From positions 1 through 22,696 of IMG/VR virus record IMGVR_UViG_3300022848_000893: a DNA stretch of 22,696 bases; one strand, given 5' to 3'. The notes below the pieces were generated by a model that was given only the letters and a program-made list of their open reading frames with translations, was not told the DNA's origin and ran no database searches. Both the position numbers and the translations under genes were made by a program. Positions 5,486-17,315 of the stretch are shown one piece after another; the stretch's first letter is position 1, and the number at the start of each line of letters is the position of its first letter. The DNA is from a virus.

Positions 5486-7224
5486 AAATATACATTGACG
5501 GAACGGAAGTGAGCAGCCCTATTGACGGGGTTTCAAGTATCTCAATTCGGTATCGCATAAAGGACGAGCAAGGTGGTATTTCAAAAAGCTACTCCCAAGA
5601 GCTCACTTTCTACGGAGCGGGATATGAAGTGATACGTGCTGCATTCATTGACGACCCGTTGGGTAAGTTCAATGAGCTTTCTTTTGAACTGATAGAGGAT
5701 TGCTGTGGTGAGCCTTTTTCAGTGTTCCAAGGTGTGCTTCGAGGTGATTCTATAGATTGGTGCGAGGGCGAGTGCTTTGTTAAGGTTACGGCCTTTGAAA
5801 GAACGCCAGACACCATTAAAAGGGAGTGCATACAATCTACTCTCATTTACGATGACAGAAACGGCTTCCAATCTCAGCAGCATCCAAGAATGGTTTACTG
5901 CCTGGAGTGGAGGCCTTCTGCATTGCAAGACGTTGTGATGGTGCTTGGAATCATAGTGAACTTGATATTCATAATTCTGATTCCTGTGGCTCTTGTTATT
6001 GCGCTGGTCGTTGAAATACTGAATGTAATTATTGGAGTGATTAATGGAATTATTGACGCGATTAATACGGTGCCGGGTATCAGCATTGACAATATAAACT
6101 CGATCGATATTGACGGCGACCCCGACACGAATACCATTGAGACATTTACAAATATGATAGACCGTATCAATGAAAATATCATTGGCTGCGGCAGGAAGCA
6201 CCCCTCACCACTTGTGCGTTCATATATCAACAATGTGTGTGATATTTGCGACATCACCTTTGAAAGCTCAATTCTTAATTCACAGGCATCACAATACTAC
6301 AATACAGTTCTCTATAATAACCCGGTGGAGAAGGGCACCCGTGATGATAACGTGAAATACATCACGAAGAATAAACCAATTCTTACTTTAGAAGGATTTC
6401 TCGCCCAGCTTAAAACTGTTTTCAATGGTGATTACAGAATCACTAACGGGGTGCTGAGATTTGAAAGAAAAGACTTCTTCTATATTGGTGAGATTTGGAT
6501 TGACTACGAGCTATTGAAAGCCCAAAATAGAATAATAGAAAAGGTCTGCTATTCATGGAGGGATGAGGAGGCATACGCCCTCGGTAGATTCAGCTATACC
6601 GAGGACCCGGTTGATTGGTGTGGAAATGAAGCCCGGGAGAGGTATAATGATATTGTAGAATGGAACCAGCCATTCACCCCGCTTCAAAAGGGAATCTATG
6701 AGAATATTTTACCCTTCGCCCCCTGCCGCTTTCGTGATGATGGTATTGATAGAGATGTCCTCGCCGACTATGACTGGTTCCCAATATTCGGCGGCGTGAT
6801 CAATGACCACAACAAAGTGATAATTCAGAACAACGGAACAAACTTTCAAGGCAAGCTTTTGATATGGGATGGAAATATGAATTTCGGAAGGGTTGAAAGG
6901 TACGTGGCCCCTGGCTTTGAAGTTGGAACAAATGAAAACTTTAACTTTCCATACTTATTTAATGAATTCAACGTGGCCCCAATAACGGCCTATGATACGG
7001 ACGCCCCGTATATGGGCCTGTATGGAAGGTTTCACTCAATAGACCACCCAAAGCTGCTGGCCGATCAAGGAAAGGAGTTTGAGTTTACTTTCAAGATTCA
7101 ATGCGAGGATATCCTTAGCTTTGACATTACTAAGAACATAATGCTTCCCATAGGCGAGGGGAGAATTGACTGGGCGGAGATTGACTACGTAAAAAGAGAA
7201 TGCACCGTATTCGGTAAAGTTTAA
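5482..7224 (+). CDS. Tail tip/baseplate hub-like protein with a hydrophobic insertion
   Basis: The 580-aa protein is encoded right after the tape measure (ATGA overlap), where siphophages place distal-tail (Dit) and tail-associated (Tal) genes. The first 140 residues are beta-rich (MKIYIDGTEV, then a strand-turn pattern) and could be a tail-ring domain. Residues 150-197 are almost entirely I, V, L, A and N, long enough for two membrane spans, followed by an acidic stretch IDIDGDPDTN. The remaining 370 residues are beta-rich with aromatics and resemble a structural hub protein. No peptidase or lysozyme motif is visible. The hydrophobic block is unusual in a virion protein and could be a membrane-penetrating element used in genome entry; that is inference. 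Base usage turns GC-richer from about 5940, where this block begins. Confidence 0.6.
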   Translation: MKIYIDGTEVSSPIDGVSSISIRYRIKDEQGGISKSYSQELTFYGAGYEVIRAAFIDDPLGKFNELSFELIEDCCGEPFSVFQGVLRGDSIDWCEGECFVKVTAFERTPDTIKRECIQSTLIYDDRNGFQSQQHPRMVYCLEWRPSALQDVVMVLGIIVNLIFIILIPVALVIALVVEILNVIIGVINGIIDAINTVPGISIDNINSIDIDGDPDTNTIETFTNMIDRINENIIGCGRKHPSPLVRSYINNVCDICDITFESSILNSQASQYYNTVLYNNPVEKGTRDDNVKYITKNKPILTLEGFLAQLKTVFNGDYRITNGVLRFERKDFFYIGEIWIDYELLKAQNRIIEKVCYSWRDEEAYALGRFSYTEDPVDWCGNEARERYNDIVEWNQPFTPLQKGIYENILPFAPCRFRDDGIDRDVLADYDWFPIFGGVINDHNKVIIQNNGTNFQGKLLIWDGNMNFGRVERYVAPGFEVGTNENFNFPYLFNEFNVAPITAYDTDAPYMGLYGRFHSIDHPKLLADQGKEFEFTFKIQCEDILSFDITKNIMLPIGEGRIDWAEIDYVKRECTVFGKV

Positions 7225-7228
7225 AAAC

Positions 7229-9181
7229 ATGGCTTCAACTGCAGAATTAACAGTAACATCAATCTCCTTAAAAGAGGCGAACGGCAAATTACCAGTCACA
7301 TCGGTACCCGCCGACTTCTTTCCCAGTATTGGCGACGAAATTATAGTGAAGTGGGTAGTTGATTTAAGTGGCAACCACGGCGACCCTTCCTCAACTGCTT
7401 TCGAGATATACAATGCTGAACTGATGATTGACTTAGCTGCCTTTGTAGAGACGGGTAGGTACTTTCATCCAAGAGGCATAAAACCATGGACAGGATTCTT
7501 CGCGAAAATGCCTGCAGCCCCAGGAACGATTGACGCTGTATTACTGACTAATGAAGAGTCTTATTTTGGGGCTTTGAACGGTGTAATGAGCATAGAAGTA
7601 ATCAGCGCCACCCAGTTCGCGGCATCCCTTTCCTTCATGCTTACTGCAGACCAAGGGAATTACTTTGGAGGACAGCTATTCAAGAACAGTGCTCGAATGG
7701 TTAAGAACCATGTAATGAATGCGACAGAGTTCAATAATACATTCAACAGTGTTTACAATAATTCGCGCTCTTTAGGAGCGTATTTCTACGTTCGACAACT
7801 CAGCGAGAACATACTACTTGATTATCAGTTCCCCCTTCGTGCCGCTTGGTATAATGAGGCAATCACCGTTGGTGCCAATGGTCCAAACTGGGAATTGACA
7901 AGAGCAGCCGTTCCCGTTACGGGAATGAGTGAGTATGCCGACACTAAAATAGAATTCACTGTCGATGATAACGGTCACACATTGAATGCAGTGCGGGTGA
8001 TGCTGTTTAGGAAGAAAGAAGGAGCGAATGACTTGGGCTTTGTTTCTGATTTAATGCTTGAGCAAGATGCATTCGCGAACGTTCCTGTCGGCACAGCTCC
8101 CATAATCGGATTCCTCAAAGAACCTTCTATAGTGACACAAGCTGCAGGAGTAATCACATTGAGTTGTATCGCTGATAAAGACTTGCTTGATGTAGGAAAT
8201 CAGTATTACTTGGCATTCATCTTGTTTCTTGATATTGGTGGAGGTGACACTATCAGTCAGACCTTTATGCAGCCAACGCCTATTCCAGTGACTGGTGTTC
8301 CCGAGCCTGTGACACTTTCTTTCTTGGATTATATGGGGAATCTAAGGACAACCATTGCAGGGAAAGCAGTGGCATGTCCACAAGAGAGAATTCGATACAC
8401 ATTTCAAATCGATGTCGGCCAGTACAAGATTGATGCTCTTGCAAATAATCTTCCTTCACTTGGCTTCAAGAATGACATCAATATGATTGAAGTGAGCTTT
8501 GTGGATGCAGGAACGAACGAAGTATTGCACCAATTTACATCAAGCAGAGTTGGTGGAGGTCCATGGAGTGGCAATATTCTCGAATATTTTGAGGACGCTT
8601 CTACAGCGCGATATTGGTTCACCCACAGGATACCGTACTTCAACCTTCAAGGATTTCCCGATTGGACTGATAAGACTATCGAGATTCGCTGGAGATTTAT
8701 GTTCAGATACTTCCTTTCCTTCCCGTTCAATACGACTGTTTTCTACAATTACACTCAAGAATTGGAAGTGAAGAAATATGATGTTCTTGTCGCAGCGCCT
8801 ACCCGAATGATTCAGAATATCTTGTTTTATAATCCCGACAATGGATATCCACTGACTTCACTGTGCAACCTTGACTCAGTAAGAGTTCGGGTGCAATTAA
8901 CGGCAGACTGGATTGGTCAGAAAATCAAGCTTATTCCAATGATAGACCGTGCTGCTTATGGACTGCAGTATTTCGGCGCTGCATTCATTCAAGAGGAAGA
9001 CACAGCACCACCCGAATTCCCGTTTGCGAACAAGACAGAACAGGAGTTGAGTTCTATAATATTCGACGCTGACAATGAGTTTGACTTGGTAACGGGGCAA
9101 GGATATTTCTCGATAGATTTAACACAGCTTGACGATTACACTCAGTACATGGTGAGCGCACTTGCACAAAATAAATTCTAA
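7229..9181 (+). CDS. Large tail-tip/receptor-binding candidate (650 aa)
   Basis: No family is recognised. The 650-aa protein is beta-rich throughout, low in lysine runs, has no coiled coil or signal peptide, and has very few cysteines (CIADK, ACPQERI, LCNLDS). Repeating strand patterns with Tyr/Phe/Trp suggest several beta-sandwich domains, for example about 1-170, 180-350, 360-510 and 520-650. It starts 5 nt after the preceding stop, with ATG in an AAAAAC context and no Shine-Dalgarno. It lies between the hub-like protein and another tail protein, which points to a tail-tip, fibre or upper-baseplate component that may contact the host surface. The function is inferred from position and composition only. 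Base usage is AT-richer than in the tape-measure front half. Confidence 0.5.
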   Translation: MASTAELTVTSISLKEANGKLPVTSVPADFFPSIGDEIIVKWVVDLSGNHGDPSSTAFEIYNAELMIDLAAFVETGRYFHPRGIKPWTGFFAKMPAAPGTIDAVLLTNEESYFGALNGVMSIEVISATQFAASLSFMLTADQGNYFGGQLFKNSARMVKNHVMNATEFNNTFNSVYNNSRSLGAYFYVRQLSENILLDYQFPLRAAWYNEAITVGANGPNWELTRAAVPVTGMSEYADTKIEFTVDDNGHTLNAVRVMLFRKKEGANDLGFVSDLMLEQDAFANVPVGTAPIIGFLKEPSIVTQAAGVITLSCIADKDLLDVGNQYYLAFILFLDIGGGDTISQTFMQPTPIPVTGVPEPVTLSFLDYMGNLRTTIAGKAVACPQERIRYTFQIDVGQYKIDALANNLPSLGFKNDINMIEVSFVDAGTNEVLHQFTSSRVGGGPWSGNILEYFEDASTARYWFTHRIPYFNLQGFPDWTDKTIEIRWRFMFRYFLSFPFNTTVFYNYTQELEVKKYDVLVAAPTRMIQNILFYNPDNGYPLTSLCNLDSVRVRVQLTADWIGQKIKLIPMIDRAAYGLQYFGAAFIQEEDTAPPEFPFANKTEQELSSIIFDADNEFDLVTGQGYFSIDLTQLDDYTQYMVSALAQNKF

Positions 9182-9184
9182 GTC

Positions 9185-10405
9185 ATGCCAGAAATAATTG
9201 AAATTAATATTCCAAACGTACACTCAGCACTTCCCTTTAAAGTTGGTGTTGAAAAGAAAGTTTTGCCTTTGAAATATGACTGCCTTGAAACATGTGGTCA
9301 GGATAATTTCTGCACCGACTGTGACAACGATTTGCCTTTTGCTTACTCTGCAGTCCCGGGAGACACTTTGCACCTTCAATTCTTACTTGAGGACACGTTT
9401 AACCTTGACCCATTGAATCCGACTTATGGTTGGAATGTAGATGATACAACTCACTGGCTTGAATTGGACCTAATGAATGCAGACGGAACGGTTGCTCTTG
9501 CGGACATTACGAATGAGTCTTGGATGGGGCAATATGTGACTGGTTTTGCTGTAGGAAACACCGAAGGAATTTCTTGGCAGAATGTGAATATTCGCTTCAC
9601 TGATTTGATGCTTCTAAGGTTAAACTGTGAGGACTTCTATTTCAGAGTGAAAGTTTGTACCTCGTCACTGGACATTCCAGACGATAACCTTTGGCTGTTC
9701 ATTGCTTCCGCTCCTGTTCTTGCAGACATTACAGCACAAGCAAGTGATTGGACAGGGAATATGATTGTACTTACCGATTCGGGGATTGTTCTTGTTTCCG
9801 ACGGTGAAAATTGGGTTGTGAATCCGACACAGCCAGTGAACGGTGACTATGCTTGGTTCGTTTACCAAGGGCAGTGGCACGAATTAATCGCTGGAAACTG
9901 GGAGAAGGATGTAACCTATGAACCAGAGTACAATAATGTTTGCGAAGAATTTAGGTACTGTGCAAGTGTACCATTCAAGAAAGTTCGTTGTGAAGAAACT
10001 GTTCATGTTTGTTCAAATCCTGCTTCTGTTCCCGCTATTGATTGCAACGGTACAATCTATGGTACCGAGCCAACTCAAGAAGTAGGTGATTGGGAGTATT
10101 CTAATTGTTTCCGCTTCCCTGCTTGGTTCGAATTAACATGCCTCAGTCCTCAGAATGAAATCACAGACGGTGGCGCAGTGATCTCTGAAACATTAACAAG
10201 TGATTATGTCCTTCAAGCAGTGCTTCCAGAGGTGGTTGCTCGACGACTTGCCGCGGCCTTTATGATTCAAGGATTCACAGTTGAAGGAATGACTTTTGAC
10301 AGCGTTTCGGAAGTGTGTAAGAACAACGATGAGGGCAACGATTGGCACGTTAATATCAAGCTCGGTAAAGAGGAATGTCGAGGAATTGGAAACGAGTGTG
10401 AATAA
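9185..10405 (+). CDS. Cysteine-rich virion/tail protein (406 aa)
   Basis: No family is recognised. I count 16 cysteines in 406 residues, arranged mostly in pairs: CLETC and CTDC near residue 35, NCEDF/KVC, VCEEFRYC, RCEETVHVC, and CRGIGNEC at the C-terminus. There is no signal peptide, so the protein is made in the cytoplasm, where disulfides would not normally form; metal binding or disulfides formed after release are both possible. A central segment with GDYAWFVYQGQWHEL and GNWEKDV resembles the short beta-rich repeats of carbohydrate-contacting or fibre proteins. It begins 3 nt after the preceding stop and closes the tail-tip cluster, before a promoter and structured leader. A tail-tip or adhesion role is inferred from position. 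Confidence 0.5.
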   Translation: MPEIIEINIPNVHSALPFKVGVEKKVLPLKYDCLETCGQDNFCTDCDNDLPFAYSAVPGDTLHLQFLLEDTFNLDPLNPTYGWNVDDTTHWLELDLMNADGTVALADITNESWMGQYVTGFAVGNTEGISWQNVNIRFTDLMLLRLNCEDFYFRVKVCTSSLDIPDDNLWLFIASAPVLADITAQASDWTGNMIVLTDSGIVLVSDGENWVVNPTQPVNGDYAWFVYQGQWHELIAGNWEKDVTYEPEYNNVCEEFRYCASVPFKKVRCEETVHVCSNPASVPAIDCNGTIYGTEPTQEVGDWEYSNCFRFPAWFELTCLSPQNEITDGGAVISETLTSDYVLQAVLPEVVARRLAAAFMIQGFTVEGMTFDSVSEVCKNNDEGNDWHVNIKLGKEECRGIGNECE

Positions 10406-10412
10406 AATCACC

Positions 10413-10420
10413 TATATTTG
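10413..10420 (+). promoter_or_regulatory. Promoter -7 box for the candidate tail-tube gene
   Basis: TATATTTG at 10413-10420 matches TAnnTTTG. No good -33 TTTG lies at 19-21 nt; a TTG at 10386-10388 is 24 nt away. By the spacing seen at the other promoters here, transcription should start near 10425, which is the first base of a leader hairpin, leaving a leader of about 80 nt before the ATG at 10505. Confidence 0.6.
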
Positions 10421-10424
10421 AACC

Positions 10425-10446
10425 GTGCGACTTGCCAAGGGCGCAC
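10425..10446 (+). promoter_or_regulatory. 5'-end hairpin of the tail-tube leader
   Basis: GTGCG (10425-10429) pairs with CGCAC (10442-10446). Inside this, CTTG (10431-10434) is complementary to CAAG (10436-10439), so the arm can extend, with the innermost pairs probably open. Because the predicted transcript begins at or near 10425, the hairpin would sit at the extreme 5' end, a position that often protects mRNA from decay. That role is inference. Confidence 0.5.
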
Positions 10447-10454
10447 GTAGCCAC

Positions 10455-10488
10455 GAGGGTGAACGACCACCCTACAATTCAATGGTCG
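10455..10488 (+). promoter_or_regulatory. Candidate pseudoknot in the tail-tube leader (copy 1 of a two-copy element)
   Basis: CGACCA (10464-10469) pairs with TGGTCG (10483-10488) around a 13-nt loop CCCTACAATTCAA. AGGG (10456-10459) just upstream can pair with the loop's CCCT (10470-10473). This is a compact H-type pseudoknot with no bases between the two stems and a 9-nt A-rich last loop. Alternatively AGGGTG (10456-10461) can form a simple hairpin with CACCCT (10468-10473), which excludes the closing stem. The element ends 16 nt before the ATG. A second copy with the same loop start, but different stem bases, precedes the capsid gene. Confidence 0.55.
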
Positions 10489-10504
10489 ATTAAACATTCT
10501 TCAA

Positions 10505-11056
10505 ATGTCTTTTTGTAATTCAGAATGTGCGGATGATATTCTGCAAATCGCAGGGAGTGGTTGTGAAATCATCACTCGTCCTGCAGGAATTAAAAGAGTA
10601 ATTTTCGGAAGGTGTGACATTACGTTCTTAGACCTTCAGGACTTAGACGAATGGGCAGCGAAACTCACTGCAAATGAAATTCACGCTACAGGCGATATTC
10701 TTGGAAGCAAGCCGAAAGGCTCTACAACCAAAAAGAAACTCGCTTCATGCAGACCACAGCAAGTGACTGGTGGTACCAAGTCGATAGCATTCACAGACTC
10801 GAATTCAGACAATACAAATTTCACGGATTATGCTTTCTATAATTCAGTGCAATTGAATTCTGGTGGAATGGTCTTTGGATATATCACTTGTGACGACTTG
10901 TTCTACGGTTGGTTCAGTGATTTCAGTGCAGAGGTGGACGATGTTCGCTCTGAAAGTAACGAAGAGGAAATGGTATTTGATATGACATTGGAGTACAATG
11001 CAATTCAAATGATGGTTCCTGTTCTAATCCCAGGACTGGACGCAATCTTGAACTAA
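10505..11056 (+). CDS. Candidate major tail (tube) protein
   Basis: The 183-aa protein has the size and beta-rich, acidic C-terminal pattern of siphophage tail-tube proteins, including FGYITCDDLFYGWFSDFSAE and EEEMVFDMTLEYNA. It has its own promoter box and an 80-nt structured leader, as expected for a very abundant virion protein. The ATG context is CTTCAA-ATG without a Shine-Dalgarno. Position is unusual: tube genes normally lie between the tail terminator and the chaperones, whereas this one follows the tail-tip genes and directly precedes the portal (next ATG follows the TAA at once). Five cysteines occur in the N-terminal half and one in FGYITCDD. No specific family motif is visible. Alternative readings are a head decoration or a head-tail joining protein. 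Confidence 0.5.
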   Translation: MSFCNSECADDILQIAGSGCEIITRPAGIKRVIFGRCDITFLDLQDLDEWAAKLTANEIHATGDILGSKPKGSTTKKKLASCRPQQVTGGTKSIAFTDSNSDNTNFTDYAFYNSVQLNSGGMVFGYITCDDLFYGWFSDFSAEVDDVRSESNEEEMVFDMTLEYNAIQMMVPVLIPGLDAILN

Positions 11057-12763
11057 ATGTTCGACGACGAAAAATTCTTTAGAGAATTCTTTTCATACCC
11101 TTCGCCTGCAGCCTTGGAGCTGTGGGCGAATGAGTATGATGAAATGACCGTTCACACCCGTGGACGTGTGCCTGTTAAGCTTATAAAAGAGCGCAGACCT
11201 TACGAGGACGAGGTCATTCAAAAGTATCGACAACAAGCCTACGAGCCAATCACAAAGGACCCTATTGACAGGGCAATCAACAACCTTCAACGCATATTCA
11301 GCAAGTCTCAAGTGAACATCGAAGTTCCAGAGAATATTGACGAGTATCTAAGCGAAAACAATTTCAGCGGCTTGACCTTCAACGGCTTTATCCGGAAAGC
11401 AATTATTCGAAGAATGATTGAAGACCCGAATGGCGCACTGTGTTGGTTTCCTGCAGGAAAAGGATTGGAGCAAGGAAATGAAGCTGTTCAAGTGAAGCCG
11501 TATGTCGTTGTGTCAAAGAACATCTTGCACTTTGACGAGCATGTAATGACTTGGCACAGTCACGAAAAGTCCATTGTCTTAACGGACAAAGGCGAAGTCT
11601 ATGAAGGTGAAATCTACTATGTAATCACCGAAAATGCGTATTATCGATATGAGCAGTTCGGTAAGAAGGAAGACAAGAAATTCCGTCACATCCTAATCTA
11701 CAAGCACTCGTTAAATTTCCTTCCTGTCATTGTACTGGGAGGCGAATTGAGTGGAGAGATTAATGACAGAACGAACACCGAGATTCTATTTCTTACAAGC
11801 TACTTTTCCTCGTTTAAAGCATTCGCGAATGAAGCTATAAGGCAGTTCTCAGACCACCAGGGAGCTATGACCGTGTCGGGATTTCCTATTCGTGAAATGG
11901 ATTCTATTTCTTGCCCGAACAATTCTTGCAAGAATGGTTGGATTTACGATAACGACAGGAGAAAATCTGTTTGCCCCGATTGTGACGGGAACGGTATTAT
12001 TCTTCCTTCGGGAAGCCCCTACGGTGTATATCTCAGACCTCCAAGAAAAGGCCCTCTACAGGACAATAACTCCGACCCCGTTCCTGCAGTAAGATTCATC
12101 ACTCCACCTGTGGAGATTTTGAAATATATGGGGGAGCACACCAACAGCCTAATTGACAAAGCTGAAAAGGCTCTGAATCTGCTATTCATACAAGAGGCTC
12201 AAAGTGGAACGGCAAAGGAAATCGACAGGGAAGACAAGGTTGCTACTCTGGACAAGATTGGCGAGAACGTTTACATGAACATCGTCTTTAATTCGATGAA
12301 GATTATCAGCGGCCTTATCAATAACAACGAGGGTGATAAACCAATCATCAACCTTCCTCCAACCTTTACAGTTAAGTCCGAGCAGGAGTTGATTGATGAA
12401 CTGGGAACACTTCGAAAAGACGGAGCACCCGAGTTCATTGTTTCAGAGGCATCTATGGACTTGCTGCGTAGTAGGTACGGCTCAAATCCTAAAGTTCTTT
12501 TCAAAGCGAAGATTCTACGTGCTTACGACACATTCTTCACCTACAGCACCGAACAGAAGAACAACCTTCAAGCATCGGGAGCAATGACACAAGAAGAGTT
12601 CTTGAAGTCTGTTCACGCTCCTACAGTGTTGGCTAAGATTGCTCTTGAGATGGGCGACAAGTTCTATGAAGCTACTTATGAAGCTATCTTCACCAAGTTG
12701 AACGCTGGAATGGCTGAATATGTGGCGGGAAGAATTGTTGATGATAAAGGAAGGTTAGAATGA
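11057..12763 (+). CDS. Portal protein with a CX4C...CX2C zinc-ribbon-like insertion
   Basis: The 568-aa protein has portal-type size and position, next to a Mu-F/gp7-type minor head gene. Typical features are helical stretches flanking a central beta region (GEVYEGEIYYVITENAYYRYEQFG), the segment LPVIVLGGELSGE, a long helical stem region (EHTNSLIDKAEKALNLLFIQEA) and a helical C-terminus. Portals form the dodecameric DNA channel at one capsid vertex. A remarkable insertion at residues 286-313 has C286, C291, C306 and C309; the second pair is in CPDCDGNG, an exact match to the DnaJ-type CxxCxGxG zinc motif. I know of no standard role for such a motif in portals. It starts directly after the preceding TAA and overlaps the next ATG (AATGA). 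Confidence 0.82.
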   Translation: MFDDEKFFREFFSYPSPAALELWANEYDEMTVHTRGRVPVKLIKERRPYEDEVIQKYRQQAYEPITKDPIDRAINNLQRIFSKSQVNIEVPENIDEYLSENNFSGLTFNGFIRKAIIRRMIEDPNGALCWFPAGKGLEQGNEAVQVKPYVVVSKNILHFDEHVMTWHSHEKSIVLTDKGEVYEGEIYYVITENAYYRYEQFGKKEDKKFRHILIYKHSLNFLPVIVLGGELSGEINDRTNTEILFLTSYFSSFKAFANEAIRQFSDHQGAMTVSGFPIREMDSISCPNNSCKNGWIYDNDRRKSVCPDCDGNGIILPSGSPYGVYLRPPRKGPLQDNNSDPVPAVRFITPPVEILKYMGEHTNSLIDKAEKALNLLFIQEAQSGTAKEIDREDKVATLDKIGENVYMNIVFNSMKIISGLINNNEGDKPIINLPPTFTVKSEQELIDELGTLRKDGAPEFIVSEASMDLLRSRYGSNPKVLFKAKILRAYDTFFTYSTEQKNNLQASGAMTQEEFLKSVHAPTVLAKIALEMGDKFYEATYEAIFTKLNAGMAEYVAGRIVDDKGRLE

Positions 12764-13575
12764 ACCTTTGGGATGCGAACGAGAAAATAGCAAGCGACGC
12801 TGAAAAGAGATTCCTTCGCTCCTTGACTGCAGTACAAAAGGAAATCTTCAAGATAGTAATGTCTAAGCTGTATGACTTTCCTATTGAAGGAGGAAGGTTT
12901 GTGACTGGGAGAAACACAGCAGACCTAATCAATGAAATCACTCGTTTGCTTCGTGGTGTATTGGCTGATTCAGACTATCGAACAACGGTCACTGATATGC
13001 TTCTTGACCTTGATGGAATCGCAGAGAACACGGCTGCAGCACACAAAGAAATCAATGGTATTTCTATTTCAAAGAATCTATTAAATTCTCAAAAGTTAAT
13101 CGCTCGGGACCAAGTCATAAGCTCCTTGATTGATTCAAATGTAGACGGAAGATTCATAAGCCCCATGAAGCGGATAATCTACAGTCGTGTGAACTTTGGA
13201 ACAAGCATCACTGAAACCGAAAAGCTTCTAAGGGAATTCATACAAGGCGCTGATGGTGATTTGGGTATTCTTCAACGCTATGCAGGGCAAGTGGCTACTG
13301 ATACGTTCAATGGATTTGAGGGCGCTATTAATCAAAAAGTGAAGGAAGAGTACAACTTGACGGTGATAGCTTATGTGAACAGCTTGGTTGAGGACTCAAG
13401 AAAACAATGTATTCGATGGGTGAATATGGGTGAAATCTCTGACGATGTATTGGAAGATGAAATCGCTTGGGCTTATAACAACGGCTCTGGTATGAGGCCG
13501 TTTACTGTTCCCGAAAACTTCTGCGAGAACCGTGGGGGATTCAAGTGCCGGCACACAGCATATCCAATTCGATAA
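12760..13575 (+). CDS. Minor head protein (phage Mu gpF/SPP1 gp7 family)
   Basis: The 271-aa protein is mostly helical with a cysteine/histidine-bearing C-terminus: KQCIRW at C217, ENFCENRGG at C255 and FKCRHTAYP with C263 and H265. The C...N-R-GG-x-x-CRH...P pattern is typical of the C-terminal domain of Mu F-type head morphogenesis proteins. Members bind the portal and travel inside or next to the head; SPP1 gp7 affects DNA ejection. It overlaps the portal stop by 4 nt (ATGA), so the pair is translationally coupled. At 271 aa it is in the normal size range. The ATG is supported by the overlap and by a helical N-terminus with no alternative upstream. Confidence 0.85.
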   Translation: MNLWDANEKIASDAEKRFLRSLTAVQKEIFKIVMSKLYDFPIEGGRFVTGRNTADLINEITRLLRGVLADSDYRTTVTDMLLDLDGIAENTAAAHKEINGISISKNLLNSQKLIARDQVISSLIDSNVDGRFISPMKRIIYSRVNFGTSITETEKLLREFIQGADGDLGILQRYAGQVATDTFNGFEGAINQKVKEEYNLTVIAYVNSLVEDSRKQCIRWVNMGEISDDVLEDEIAWAYNNGSGMRPFTVPENFCENRGGFKCRHTAYPIR

Positions 13576-13580
13576 AATTC

Positions 13581-13588
13581 TATCTTTG
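13581..13588 (+). promoter_or_regulatory. Promoter -7 box for the spanin-like genes
   Basis: TATCTTTG at 13581-13588 lies between the minor head stop and the ATG at 13593. It ends exactly 4 nt before the ATG, as at 1113 and 21635, so a leaderless mRNA is predicted. No TTTG is visible at the -33 spacing. Confidence 0.65.
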
Positions 13589-13592
13589 ATTT

Positions 13593-13946
13593 ATGAAAAC
13601 GATTGAAAAAGTCATTTTGATAGCTGTGGTTCTATTGCTCGGGTTTCTGTCCTACATGCTATGGCAAAAGGATAAAGAGGTTCAAGTGCTGCAGGAAAGC
13701 AGGACGCAATTCATCAACCAATTATCAGTTCTCACAGAATCGAGAATCGAAGAATCTGACAAGGTTGTTCTGCAGCTAAGAAAAGAAGTCCAGGTTCTCG
13801 ACACAGAATACAAATCGCTTTTGATAGCATTGGAGAAATCCATGAAGTCCGGGGCACAAATTCCAAAGAAGTATGAAGACCAACTTAAGAAGCTTCGTGA
13901 CATGTCTGCTTTTGATGTTTACAGTATTATCACAGGCACAGATTGA
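13593..13946 (+). CDS. Inner-membrane spanin-like protein (i-spanin candidate)
   Basis: The 117-aa protein has one N-terminal membrane span (residues about 6-23, VILIAVVLLLGFLSYMLW) followed by a periplasmic coiled coil rich in E, K, Q and L (about 25-105). This is the architecture of i-spanins such as lambda Rz, which bridge to an outer-membrane partner and disrupt the outer membrane at the end of lysis. A second secretory ORF overlaps its last 74 nt in another frame, and an amidase gene follows: the classical lysis context. Sequence similarity to Rz is not apparent, so the call rests on topology and neighbours. An alternative is a small membrane-anchored protein unrelated to lysis. Confidence 0.6.
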   Translation: MKTIEKVILIAVVLLLGFLSYMLWQKDKEVQVLQESRTQFINQLSVLTESRIEESDKVVLQLRKEVQVLDTEYKSLLIALEKSMKSGAQIPKKYEDQLKKLRDMSAFDVYSIITGTD

Positions 13947-14322
13947 TACTTGCTCCTGCAATTACGGGGTGAACTTAAATGCCGCGGGTGATACTGTTTA
14001 TGTTCTAAGCTATTCGCAAGGATTGACGGTTGCAAAAATTCACATTGAAAAAGAGCAGTACAAAGAACAGTTTAAATCCTGTTCTTACAACCTTGAACTG
14101 ACTAAGAAGCTCATTCAAAACAGGCTCAATCAACTTAACAACTGCAGCGAGAGGGAAGACCAATACATGTTTCAAATATCGGAATTAAAGAACGTCATTG
14201 ATGCCTACGAAATAGAACAAGGCAGCTATGCACTAAGGGAAAGAAAGCACGAAAGGCAAAAATGGATGATTGGAGGAAGCGGAGTGATTCTGATTGTGGC
14301 CGCTTTATTTGTGCCAAATTAA
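13873..14322 (+). CDS. Exported coiled-coil protein, candidate spanin partner
   Basis: The 149-aa protein starts inside the preceding gene in the +1 frame (74-nt overlap). Residues 1-22 form a signal peptide (MKTNLRSF, hydrophobic LLLMFTVL, then SQA and a likely cut before Q). Residues about 55-125 are coiled-coil-like, and residues about 131-148 (WMIGGSGVILIVAALFV) form a second hydrophobic segment at the C-terminus. Cysteines at C27, C29, C57 and C81 lie in the exported part. An o-spanin should be a lipoprotein, but no convincing lipobox is present (neither FVTC nor DTC fits). So either the anchoring differs from lambda Rz1, with a C-terminal span, or the role is different. The overlap and lysis context support a spanin-type partnership. 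Confidence 0.55.
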   Translation: MKTNLRSFVTCLLLMFTVLSQAQIDTCSCNYGVNLNAAGDTVYVLSYSQGLTVAKIHIEKEQYKEQFKSCSYNLELTKKLIQNRLNQLNNCSEREDQYMFQISELKNVIDAYEIEQGSYALRERKHERQKWMIGGSGVILIVAALFVPN

Positions 14323-14386
14323 CCGAATAACAGACTTTCTACTTGATTGCACGGCATTATAAGCCCCAACCTTCAATCGTTTAAAA

Positions 14387-14965
14387 ATGCCCTCTAAAAA
14401 TCACGAGCTTGAGTTCTTGATGATACATTGCACCTATACCAAGAAATCGCTTCGGGTTTCGAAAGGTATGCTTCAACGTTGGCACATGGGCCCCAAGAAA
14501 CTCGCTGCAGGGAAATATCAATATCTCGATAAAGAGTTCAAGTCCTTAGCAGCTTTGCCAAATGACGTTATTGACGGGCAGAGCATAAAGACGTTCACTG
14601 GCCGTGGGTGGAATAGATTAGGGTATTCTGGAATGTGGACTCTTGAAGGAGGGTACTTAGAATTGACACCGTACAACGAAGACCCTTGGGTTGATGAAAA
14701 GGAAAAGACTTGGGGCGCTGCAGGGATGAACAGTTCTACTCGACATTTCGTTTACGAAGGTGGTCGGGGAGCAAAAGGAGCAGAGGACACAAGAACACCT
14801 CAGCAACTGTTGGCCATGGAAATTTGGGTACTGGACCATATCTCAAAGTTCCCCAAAATCAAGATTCTTGGTCATAACCAAGTCAGCTCAAAGGAGTGCC
14901 CTGCGTTCAATGTTCCTTCGTGGTGTCGTGAGATTGGTGTTTCTGAGGAAAACATCTATCTTTGA
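14387..14965 (+). CDS. N-acetylmuramoyl-L-alanine amidase endolysin (Amidase_2/T7 lysozyme type)
   Basis: The 192-aa enzyme cleaves the amide bond between N-acetylmuramic acid and L-alanine in peptidoglycan. Visible motifs are H14 in FLMIHCT (first zinc ligand), SSTRHFVYEGG, and GHNQVSSKECPAF with H163, K169 and C171. The H-x5-K-x-C spacing is that of T7 lysozyme (H122, K128, C130), so zinc ligands and the catalytic lysine are intact. There is no signal peptide or cell-wall-binding domain, so export depends on a holin; a holin candidate lies 4 kb downstream. The start follows A-rich TTTAAAA-ATG. The preceding 64 nt (14323-14386) show no promoter box, so the gene is probably read from the spanin promoter. 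Its TGA overlaps the next promoter box. Confidence 0.92.
   Translation: MPSKNHELEFLMIHCTYTKKSLRVSKGMLQRWHMGPKKLAAGKYQYLDKEFKSLAALPNDVIDGQSIKTFTGRGWNRLGYSGMWTLEGGYLELTPYNEDPWVDEKEKTWGAAGMNSSTRHFVYEGGRGAKGAEDTRTPQQLLAMEIWVLDHISKFPKIKILGHNQVSSKECPAFNVPSWCREIGVSEENIYL
14935..14964 (+). promoter_or_regulatory. Promoter overlapping the amidase stop codon
   Basis: TTG (14935-14937), then 19 nt, then TATCTTTG (14957-14964). The box overlaps the amidase TGA (14963-14965). The predicted start is near 14969, giving a leader of about 33 nt, rich in A and lacking a Shine-Dalgarno, before the ATG at 15002. It would drive the small unknown gene and the scaffold-like gene. Confidence 0.65.
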
Positions 14966-15001
14966 TACTCATTGTCAAACTATTATCAAAAAAACAATAC
15001 C

Positions 15002-15292
15002 ATGGTAAAAAATTCAGCGGTCAATATTAAAGACCTACACACTGGCAGGTTGTTCAAGCTTTCTGAAAAAGCCTACAGAACAAGCCTCGCAAAGCAAACA
15101 TTTGAGCAGAACGGCAAGAAGGTTCAGCGATATGTGATTGAGAGGGAAGAGAAGTTAAATGCTACAGAAATCATTGAGCTCATTGCGACTCTTGACGACA
15201 AGTTGAGAATTCAAGGTTACTTGAATGACCCTCGTGTGACTGTTAAGAAAGCAGCTCAAGAAAGACTTGAGGAAGTTTCAAAAAACGACTAA
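15002..15292 (+). CDS. Small protein of unknown function upstream of scaffold (96 aa)
   Basis: I do not recognise a family. The protein is about 96 aa, charged and K/E-rich. Its N-terminal part (VNIKDLHTGRLFKLSEKAYRTSL) looks beta-strand rich, and the C-terminal 50 residues are helical. I chose the ATG at 15002: a TTG in the same frame at 14972 would place the start only 3 nt after the predicted transcription start and has no translation signal. The upstream A-rich sequence fits Bacteroidota initiation. It is encoded directly before the scaffold-like gene, 21 nt apart, on the same transcript, so a capsid-assembly or decoration role is possible. Confidence 0.6.
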   Translation: MVKNSAVNIKDLHTGRLFKLSEKAYRTSLAKQTFEQNGKKVQRYVIEREEKLNATEIIELIATLDDKLRIQGYLNDPRVTVKKAAQERLEEVSKND

Positions 15293-15313
15293 GCCCTTGC
15301 AATAAATGTTGAT

Positions 15314-16123
15314 ATGGATAAATTAAAAGAGTTATTGATAGCAGCGGGCATGAAGTCTGAGACTATCGAAAAATTCCTTGATGCTGAAAAGGCAAAGGAT
15401 ATTGATGTTAAGGTTGAGACACAAGGGCTACTCGCAAATCTTCGCGAAAGATTTATGAACGATTCTTCTTTCATCGACCCAATCAAAAAGTCTGTTCGCG
15501 GTGAACTACTGTCATCGAAAGAAAACAAGCTGATGAAGCTTTTTGACGTTTCGAAAGAAGAATATGATGCGCTGCCCGAAAGCACAAAATTTGATTCTCT
15601 GATGGACTTGTGCAAAACAAAGTCGGGCAAGAGTTCGGGTGATGTGAATAAGGAGTTGGAAGCTTTGAATAAGAAGATGGCAACGTTGAAGGCAGAAAAC
15701 GAAACTCTTTCTCAAACAATTCCAGCGGAGAAGACTAAGCTTGAAGCGGAGAAGGAGAATTGGATTACCTCGAATCAGCTTGGTAAGTTGGTTGGAAAGC
15801 ATGAACTAATCGTTCCCCTTGAGTTCGCCGAAACCACAACTGTAAACATGCTACTTTCAAAGTACGATGTGAAGCGAGTTGATGGTAAGTTGAAGCTCCT
15901 GCAGAAAGGAACTGAACTTGATGCTTATGACGACAAGAACACGAAGATTGAGGCTGACACTGCAATCAAGTCAATTCTTGAAGAGAACAAGCTTATCAAG
16001 AAAAGCAATGCCAATCCTGACCCGAATAACCCACCACCCCCGACACCTCCTGCGAACACAAGCAAGCTCCCAGGACTGCAGAAAGCTCAGGCACATGCCG
16101 AGAAAATAAAGGCGGCAGAATAA
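15314..16123 (+). CDS. Scaffold-like capsid assembly protein (GP20-type)
   Basis: The 269-aa protein has the composition and layout of phage scaffolds: a helical, charged N-terminus (MDKLKELLIAAGM), a central coiled coil (about residues 115-150, LEALNKKMATLKAENETL), then a conserved-looking segment (about 160-235) with LLSKYDVKRVDGKLKLLQKG and DAYDDKNTKIEADTAIKSIL, which resembles phage minor structural GP20/scaffold proteins. A Pro/Asn/Thr-rich linker (DPNNPPPPTPPANT) leads to a basic helical tail that could bind the coat protein. It lies directly upstream of the candidate capsid gene, the usual place for a scaffold. A strong terminator follows its stop. Confidence 0.75.
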   Translation: MDKLKELLIAAGMKSETIEKFLDAEKAKDIDVKVETQGLLANLRERFMNDSSFIDPIKKSVRGELLSSKENKLMKLFDVSKEEYDALPESTKFDSLMDLCKTKSGKSSGDVNKELEALNKKMATLKAENETLSQTIPAEKTKLEAEKENWITSNQLGKLVGKHELIVPLEFAETTTVNMLLSKYDVKRVDGKLKLLQKGTELDAYDDKNTKIEADTAIKSILEENKLIKKSNANPDPNNPPPPTPPANTSKLPGLQKAQAHAEKIKAAE

Positions 16124-16140
16124 TATTCGATTCTATTTCA

Positions 16141-16148
16141 TATCTTTG
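16141..16148 (+). promoter_or_regulatory. Promoter -7 box at the capsid leader
   Basis: TATCTTTG at 16141-16148 matches the consensus used elsewhere in the window. No TTTG lies at the -33 spacing. The predicted start near 16153 falls inside the 5' arm of the following terminator stem, so RNA from this promoter would lack most of that arm. The leader to the GTG at 16278 would be about 125 nt. Confidence 0.55.
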
Positions 16149-16182
16149 AGCCATAGCATTAAATCTGTGGCTCATTTTTTTT
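16148..16182 (+). terminator. Intrinsic terminator after the scaffold gene
   Basis: GAGCCATAG (16148-16156) pairs with CTGTGGCTC (16165-16173; one G-U), with an 8-nt loop, and is followed by a run of eight T (16175-16182). The structure should stop transcripts arriving from the scaffold gene. Its 5' arm begins on the last base of the TATCTTTG box. Confidence 0.8.
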
Positions 16183-16193
16183 GCTTCTTGGCT

Positions 16194-16220
16194 GAGGGAT
16201 GCCCCCTACACTGAAAGGCA
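16194..16220 (+). promoter_or_regulatory. Candidate pseudoknot in the capsid leader (copy 2 of a two-copy element)
   Basis: TGCC (16200-16203) pairs with GGCA (16217-16220) around a 13-nt loop CCCTACACTGAAA. AGGG (16195-16198) one base upstream can pair with the loop's CCCT (16204-16207), giving an H-type pseudoknot like that at 10455-10488. Ten of 13 loop bases agree between the copies and the loop length is identical, while the closing stem differs in sequence but keeps its pairing. A further hairpin, GCTCA/TGAGC (16233-16237 with 16250-16254), lies downstream. Confidence 0.55.
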
Positions 16221-16277
16221 ACCGAAGGAACTGCTCACCTTACGTTCTATTGAGCACAATCAACAAAATTTAACGAC

Positions 16278-17315
16278 GTGGAATTAGCAGATTTTTGCAA
16301 AACCATGCAACAAGATTTGAACGACCTTGCGGGTAACAACTACCCAGCAATGAAAAGGGAGTCTACAGGTCTGTTGGATGCCATCGTGTCAAGTGAAAAC
16401 ACCTCTGGCACACCAGAAGCCGTTGCGGTTAATCCGGGAAACGGAAAAAGAAAAGATGTAATCGTTCGTTGGTTCACCCCAGGCCTTGAGTCTGAGACTT
16501 CTGACGAAGATGTCAATATTTGCACAGCAGATGGAATCTCCATCGTGCCGAATGAGGCCTTAGTTAGTATCGATTCCTTCCGTAGAAGTCCAGTGATGGA
16601 GTTTACGAAAGATGAACTTCGTAACTACTGTGAAGGTCCTGCCGAGTATCGTGCGAATGCGGCTGCATCGAGAATGAGTGCATTATTCCGCTCCATTAAT
16701 AAAGACCTTATCGCTCAGTACGTTGCACAGGCGGGAGGTTTCTACGGTGGAGTTGCTGCAGGGAAAGCAGTTAATTTCTTGGCTCAAGAGGGCTTAATCA
16801 TCCAAGCTGACCCGAATGGTGAGTTTGAAATGAATTCTGACTTCTCGAATCTTGGAGTTGATTCTCGACCAATAGTTGTTGGTAATGGAAACATTGACCG
16901 ATATACTCGTTTGCAGGGAATTGGATGCTGCAATAACTATGGTCAAGCAATCGACCAAACTTCACAGTTCGCATTCTTTAGAGATAAAGATATTGCGGCT
17001 GTCACAGCTGAGGCGAACCAATTCTTTGCATTTGCATCGGGAGCGAATCAGTTCTTGAAGTGGAATCTCAACAAAGGTGAGTTCGCTATGGTGGACGACA
17101 GAAGTGTTGAGAGCACGGTGGTTGACCCAGTGAATGGAATAGAGCTTGACTATGACGCTTACTATGACCGTTGTACCAAGACCTACAAAATTTACTTCTA
17201 CTTGAACTACAAGCTTTGGACAATGCCAGCAGGCATTTACCAAGTGGGTGATGATAGAGCTGGAACGAACAACTGCTTCATTTATGATGCAGAAATGGCG
17301 GTGCCAGCACCTTGA
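16278..17315 (+). CDS. Probable major capsid protein (HK97-fold)
   Basis: The 345-aa protein lies directly downstream of the scaffold-like gene, behind its own promoter and structured leader, and is followed by a strong terminator: the arrangement of a major capsid gene. The sequence has a helical N-terminus (ADFCKTMQQDLNDLAG), a mixed central part with FTKDELRNYCEGPAEYRANA and helical SRMSALFRSINKDLIAQYV, and a beta-rich end with WNLNKGEFAMVDD and YLNYKLWTMPAGIYQVG. This fits an HK97-type coat protein, although no diagnostic motif exists. The start is GTG at 16278 in an A-rich context; ATG at 16305, nine codons in, is the alternative. The protein should make up most of the virion mass. Confidence 0.75.
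   Translation: MELADFCKTMQQDLNDLAGNNYPAMKRESTGLLDAIVSSENTSGTPEAVAVNPGNGKRKDVIVRWFTPGLESETSDEDVNICTADGISIVPNEALVSIDSFRRSPVMEFTKDELRNYCEGPAEYRANAAASRMSALFRSINKDLIAQYVAQAGGFYGGVAAGKAVNFLAQEGLIIQADPNGEFEMNSDFSNLGVDSRPIVVGNGNIDRYTRLQGIGCCNNYGQAIDQTSQFAFFRDKDIAAVTAEANQFFAFASGANQFLKWNLNKGEFAMVDDRSVESTVVDPVNGIELDYDAYYDRCTKTYKIYFYLNYKLWTMPAGIYQVGDDRAGTNNCFIYDAEMAVPAP

Follow-up and report, generated by a model that had tools for sequence, protein, structure and literature searches.

We analyzed an uncultured phage sequence, the IMG/VR virus record IMGVR_UViG_3300022848_000893 (22,696 nucleotides, all of it analyzed and here called the window), which carries phage genes for a large terminase, a tape measure protein, a portal protein, and an amidase. 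Two other genes, a candidate tail-tube gene and a candidate major capsid gene, have 5' leaders that can fold into compact H-type pseudoknots, in which two stems (S1 and S2) cross and are joined by loops L1 to L3 (Table 1). An initial annotation had described one pseudoknot in each leader. Both are present (pseudoknots A and B), and they begin one base to the right of where they had been placed (AGGG at 10456 and 16195). The reported geometry also holds: loops of 13 nucleotides that are identical at 10 of 13 positions, an L1 of 4 and 1 nucleotides, no L2, and an L3 of 9 nucleotides. A third pseudoknot (C) lies four bases 3' of B, and its 13-nucleotide loop and 9-nucleotide last loop are as in A and B; the capsid leader therefore contains a tandem pair. 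Pseudoknot A ends 16 nucleotides before the start codon of the tube gene, and C ends 21 nucleotides before that of the capsid gene.

Table 1. Features of the window and pseudoknots of its nearest relative (G002). Pseudoknot sequences are given as S1, L1, S2, L2 (if any), 3' strand of S1, L3, and 3' strand of S2, separated by spaces.
Feature	Position	Strand	Segments or sequence	Remarks
Putative -7 promoter element, tube leader	10413..10420	+	TATATTTG	predicted transcript start near 10425
5' hairpin	10425..10446	+	GTGCG/CGCAC	at the predicted 5' end of the tube-gene mRNA
Pseudoknot A	10456..10488	+	AGGG UGAA CGACCA CCCU ACAAUUCAA UGGUCG	S1 10456-10459/10470-10473, L1 10460-10463, S2 10464-10469/10483-10488, L3 10474-10482
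Small conserved virion protein gene (candidate tail tube)	10505..11056	+		directly 5' of the portal gene; homologues exist
Scaffold-like gene	15314-16123			precedes the candidate capsid gene
Putative -7 promoter element, capsid leader	16141..16148	+	TATCTTTG	predicted transcript start near 16153
Intrinsic terminator	16147..16182	+	10-bp stem and T8	ends upstream transcription; overlaps the promoter
Pseudoknot B	16195..16220	+	AGGG A UGCC CCCU ACACUGAAA GGCA	S1 16195-16198/16204-16207, L1 16199, S2 16200-16203/16217-16220, L3 16208-16216
Pseudoknot C	16225..16256	+	AAGG AAC UGCUCA CCUU ACGUUCUAU UGAGCA	S1 16225-16228/16238-16241, L1 16229-16231, S2 16232-16237/16251-16256, L3 16242-16250
Major capsid protein gene (candidate)	16278..17315	+		GTG start; conserved family; 3' of the scaffold-like gene
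G002 tube-leader pseudoknot	L049 2402-2434		AGGC GAGC CGCCG A GCCU AAGAAAGAUA CGGCG
G002 capsid-leader pseudoknot 1	9240-9272		AGGC CUC UCUCUCG A GCCU AAGAAAA CGAGAGA
G002 capsid-leader pseudoknot 2	9279-9311		AGGA CAGC GCCCG C UCCU AAGAAGAAGC CGGGC

Short pseudoknots of this kind might arise by chance in spacers rich in GC, or they might be simple hairpins that are misread as pseudoknots. Indeed, a loose scan of the window gives about 2 matches per kb on each of its strands. Because single loose matches are uninformative against such a background, we used a strict scan and conditional tests. The strict scan required a Watson-Crick S1 of 4 base pairs that contains GG, an L1 of 1–5 nucleotides, an S2 of at least 4 base pairs, an L2 of 0–1, and an L3 of 7–10. 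On the + strand of the window, it found three matches, every one inside the tube or capsid leader, and on the - strand it found two weaker matches of other sequence. The initial annotation was right that the copies are restricted to the two leaders, but its count was too low, as it overlooked pseudoknot C.

The nearest relative of the window, IMG/VR 3300002137_000253 (G002, whose first 12 kb we call L049), was reached via a terminase search. Its capsid and portal proteins are each 47% identical to those of the window, and its tube protein is 52% identical. The layout is the same (a single pseudoknot in the tube leader and a pair in the capsid leader), and in all four leaders the last pseudoknot ends 16–23 nucleotides before the start codon. 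From the window to G002, S1 changes from AGGG/CCCU to AGGC/GCCU and AGGA/UCCU, with both strands altered, and the S2 stems of G002 are unrelated to those of the window. Among the six pseudoknots, the fourth pair of S1 is G-C, C-G, or A-U, and the second is G-C or A-U. Judged from the sequences, this is covariation that lay beyond the reach of the two original copies. Covariation had been claimed from those two copies, but with one S1 sequence and S2 stems of unequal length, they do not suffice for it; the evidence lies in the third copy and in the relatives. The initial proposal, that late structural mRNAs share a cis element, was to be abandoned if the motif did not recur in related phages or if both stems were broken there. 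We found the opposite, in support of the proposal: the pseudoknots recur before homologous genes, and both stems are kept.

To look beyond these two genomes, we used 48 loci that were found from an alignment of three tube proteins (G002 and the contig of locus L060 are included). The capsid leaders of this wider family are long and structured. We scanned 27 dissimilar capsid leaders for H-type pseudoknots with Watson-Crick pairs only and a summed stem energy of -12 kcal/mol or below, and used dinucleotide shuffles as the control. There were 36 pseudoknots, versus 3.5 expected, and 22 of the 27 leaders had at least one (3.4 expected). With a threshold of -10 kcal/mol, there were 40 matches (6.6 expected). 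Since the scan parameters were fixed after the first examples had been seen, we repeated the scan without the window, G002, and L060, which were the sources of the geometry; 20 of the remaining 24 leaders still had matches, 32 in total. Because the leaders are in part homologous, some of these counts depend on one another: the leaders that resemble L069 (about eight) share one ancestor, while the rest differ in sequence. Two or more pseudoknots per leader are common (the window, L049, L069, L077, L092, L065, L067, L083, L104, L074, and L098). Pseudoknot density is 7.63 per kb in the capsid leaders versus 0.98 per kb in coding sequence and 1.14 per kb in other gaps, and two of the twelve matches in other gaps come from the window and G002, in their tube leaders.

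Some capsid leaders have further features. In L060 (around 8626-8690), the sequence before the capsid gene has two AT-rich near-repeats in tandem (GGTTACnTTATTCC..AATAATTTGAGG), which could fold into two weak pseudoknots whose S2 is TTATT/AATAA. In L069 (around 6730-6900) and similar leaders (L100, L068, and L078), a first hairpin with tetraloops of the GGAG, GGCG, or GTCG type is shared and a later element is conserved as well; the structured region spans about 130 nucleotides overall and had no match in Rfam.

Both stems can be examined separately. In the homologous L069-like set, in which S1 is GGUU/AACC or GGU/ACC, we aligned the leaders structurally, element by element, and checked the alignment against the sequences. 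(A MAFFT alignment of the pseudoknot segments was dropped because it misplaced the 3' strand of S1 in length variants.) The four S2 positions give eight distinct stems, all of them fully paired, and both sides change in three of the four pairs. When the 3' strands of S2 were shuffled, none of 20,000 trials matched the observed pairing. Such diversity with full pairing supports the S2 hairpin as a probable structure. For the crossing stem, we took all 81 leader hairpins that were found by S2 alone and asked if the 5' flank could pair with the start of the loop (-4.5 kcal/mol or below). A crossing S1 was present in 29 of the 81, versus 5.0 with shuffled flanks (at most 10 in 500 trials) and 6.2 with flanks swapped between leaders (at most 16); among hairpins from whole contigs, the proportion was 3.9%. 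Given an S2 hairpin, the crossing stem is thus about six times as frequent as by chance, and selection appears to act on the pseudoknot and not on the hairpin alone. With this conditional excess, the sense bias described below, and the enrichment of leaders over shuffles, coding sequence, and other gaps, we consider chance folds or misread hairpins very improbable.

The matches in the 27 leaders are also oriented: 36 are on the sense strand and 10 are antisense (in 5 leaders). A structured DNA site for packaging, replication, or recombination has a precedent of sorts, as a DNA role was once considered for the tandem-pseudoknot STAXI motif (PMC2864571). But the sense bias, the short L1 with a longer and A-rich L3 (63% A), and the orientation of the leaders with their genes all point to RNA, and a DNA site seems even less probable to us than chance folding.

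The element is associated with the leader rather than with the gene. Of 37 distinct tube leaders, 34 immediately follow the capsid gene (median gap of 36 nucleotides), and apart from two weak matches, tube leaders of this type lack a pseudoknot. The only tube genes with a clear pseudoknot of their own are those of the window and G002, which are separated from the capsid gene, each with a promoter-like element to itself. L060 is an exception to this rule: its tube gene stands apart as well, yet the leader is short and has no pseudoknot. Overall, the pseudoknots belong to capsid mRNA leaders and, in the window's own lineage, to the candidate tail-tube mRNA too, and they travel with the leader of the late virion mRNA, not with the gene.

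In Bacteroidota, the -7 promoter element has the consensus TAHHTTTG at -12 to -5 (PMC6847099). Both leaders of the window have a putative element of this type (Table 1), and we saw no clear -33 TTTG element for either. TAnnTTTG promoter-like sequences lie upstream of the pseudoknots in the window, L060, L083, L067, and L074. A similar TATATTTG is present in the reverse complement of L053; a GGGGTG/CACCCC hairpin and a T-run come next, ahead of the gene upstream of portal. In the capsid leader of the window, the predicted start at 16153 falls inside the stem of the terminator, so the new transcript would lack most of the 5' arm and only upstream transcripts could be stopped there. At this site (16141-16182), read-through RNA would stop while new RNA begins within the stem.

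Terminators raise another explanation, an attenuator. The last pseudoknot would be an antiterminator whose 3' half doubles as the 5' arm of a terminator, and a stabilizer (a ligand, a protein, or timing) would switch capsid transcription. In L067 and L100, a terminator does follow the last pseudoknot and its computed 5' arm overlaps the 3' half of the knot, as is typical of attenuators; the third pseudoknot of L083, read by eye, overlaps a terminator likewise, and L083 and L067 have the promoter-like elements mentioned above. In the window and G002, however, the terminators precede the pseudoknots and none lies between the pseudoknots and the start codon, and most leaders lack a strong U-run 3' of the pseudoknots. 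An antiterminator role is possible in some relatives, but we think it unlikely that attenuation explains the family.

Across the family, the steadier half of the element is S1 (AGG- or GG-rich, 3–5 base pairs) together with the A-rich third loop, and S2 is nearly free provided that its strands pair. Copies from the same genome have the 3' strand of S1 and the start of L3 in common (CCCUACA in the window and GCCUAAGAA in G002) and differ in S2. This shared part might be the recognition site of a protein that acts in trans, either an autogenous or shared repressor or an activator, as gp32 does in phage T4, and S1 in both leaders of G002 departs from that of the window in step. On the other hand, one sequence would need to serve two unrelated genes, the element is tied to the transcript leader and not to one product, and sequences are very free across the family. 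The sharing could come from a common binder, but recent duplication would account for it equally well. We rate an operator of this kind as improbable, to about the same degree as attenuation.

Rather than gp32-style autorepression, we favor an element at the 5' end that acts in cis to raise or protect late mRNA. Computation demonstrates that the leaders can fold into pseudoknots, which recur with compensatory changes, are biased toward the sense strand, and are restricted to these leaders. The link to leaders and the freedom of sequence are better explained by a structural role of the mRNA 5' end than by one product acting as a repressor. In the proposed mechanism, the pseudoknots would form during transcription of the leader from a nearby upstream promoter, the rigid structure would protect the 5' end of the mRNA against nucleases in cis, and the pseudoknots would hold leader sequence off the A-rich and unstructured start region; in the window and G002, this region lies 16–23 nucleotides past the last knot. 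That a family of compact H-type pseudoknots, usually in tandem, acts in cis from 5' leaders to raise the yield of late virion proteins seems to us to have about an even chance of being correct.

Several observations weigh against this explanation. In a simple model, the energies of the pseudoknots are only slightly better than those of nested folds, and capsid copy 2 of G002 is the only one of the six knots that is not better. Many relatives (such as L069 and L100) have no promoter that we could find just before the pseudoknots, which follow directly after the upstream gene, so the element may be intercistronic there. Also, the start of L3 and the S1 strand that are shared within a genome could mean recognition by a factor instead of mechanical strength. 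Nested-only folding, to which the crossing stem is invisible, was set aside; for that reason, it gave weak z-scores in three of four leaders. The initial annotation had also pointed to a competing hairpin and a two-state switch. The hairpin is real in pseudoknot A, where AGGGUG/CACCCU belongs to the minimum-energy nested fold, but equivalent competition is not common to the six knots, and we reject the switch as a general feature. The competition in some relatives is a different one, between the last pseudoknot and a terminator.

The identities of the two genes are candidates. The predicted structure of the capsid candidate is of low confidence (a predicted local distance difference test score, or pLDDT, of 43), and its best PDB matches are P22-type coat proteins; with the gene's position, this is only suggestive of a capsid protein. 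The gene appears to start with GTG, as the nearby upstream sequence has no in-frame ATG. The tube label, given by position, cannot be confirmed (the structure prediction has a pLDDT of 28), while the capsid label has gained weak structural support. The product of the upstream gene belongs to a family of small virion proteins with conserved cysteines. Its profile is weakly similar at the N-terminus to the "minor capsid protein" of Flavobacterium phage 1/32 (hhalign E value of 0.0023), the gene for which also sits upstream of portal, so "tail tube" may be the wrong label. Neither protein had a recognizable homologue among the cultured phages searched, and phage 1/32, which was matched via portal only, showed no such leader when we read its sequence. 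The promoter type and this portal match suggest a Bacteroidota-type host. A 4-kb contig (L002, IMGVR_UViG_3300022851_001484) is 99% identical to the terminase of the window and reaches upstream of the window's start.

The pseudoknots appear to constitute an RNA control element that had not been described before, in a family of uncultured phages. We found no report of capsid-leader pseudoknots in the full-text literature searched, which excluded most subscription papers, so its novelty is not certain. In this clade, the candidate major capsid mRNA has leader pseudoknots that are mostly paired, and their freedom of sequence hides the family from Rfam. The family makes it possible to test directly if phages use knotted 5' ends to stabilize or switch late mRNA. 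It also offers short modular parts for controlling expression in Bacteroidota, which do not have Shine-Dalgarno sequences (PMC6847099).

Among known systems, the STAXI motif (RF01728) is a pseudoknot that is repeated two or three times (PMC2864571). Tandem pseudoknots are present here too, but STAXI is found in Enterobacteriales, near genes for DNA-handling proteins, and frequently has UUCG tetraloops. Rfam scans of the window and 10 relative loci, including the models for STAXI and riboswitches, gave only sub-threshold chance matches, and permissive scans of the capsid leaders of the window and L069 gave no STAXI or riboswitch match. The preQ1-I and SAM-II riboswitches are small H-type pseudoknots in which an A-rich loop lies against one stem. 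Some of the relatives resemble them in having competition with a terminator, but the family lacks a conserved ligand-binding core, its sequence is nearly free, and it has no Rfam match. Exoribonuclease-resistant viral RNAs sometimes occur in tandem. They are known to act against Xrn1, in RNA viruses of eukaryotes. Like them, the leaders are compact, knotted, and driven by structure, and they may likewise resist nucleases. Somewhat more tentatively than the cis role itself, we suggest that tandem knots selected for shape and not sequence set the output of capsid mRNA across a large clade of uncultured, Bacteroidota-type phages, either as a bacterial counterpart of these nuclease-resistant knots or as a late-gene switch under pseudoknot control.

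The closest comparison is with gene 32 of phages T4, T2, and RB69, where a compact H-type pseudoknot with coaxially stackable stems lies in a phage mRNA leader, tens of nucleotides before the start codon and upstream of an A/U-rich start region (PMC3014915). The window and G002 likewise have an H-type pseudoknot 5' of an unstructured A/U-rich start region. The gene 32 pseudoknot is a single copy before the gene for a single-stranded DNA-binding protein and is bound by its product, whereas the pseudoknots here are usually in tandem, precede candidate capsid and tail-tube genes, and have no known binder. The earlier analogy to gene 32 autoregulation is therefore not supported, as the element follows the leader and not one product. 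Among T4 mRNAs, the most stable is that of gene 32, which has a pseudoknot in its leader and undergoes RNase E cleavage at -71 (PMC3014915); this makes protection of the mRNA a reasonable guess for the leaders of this family.

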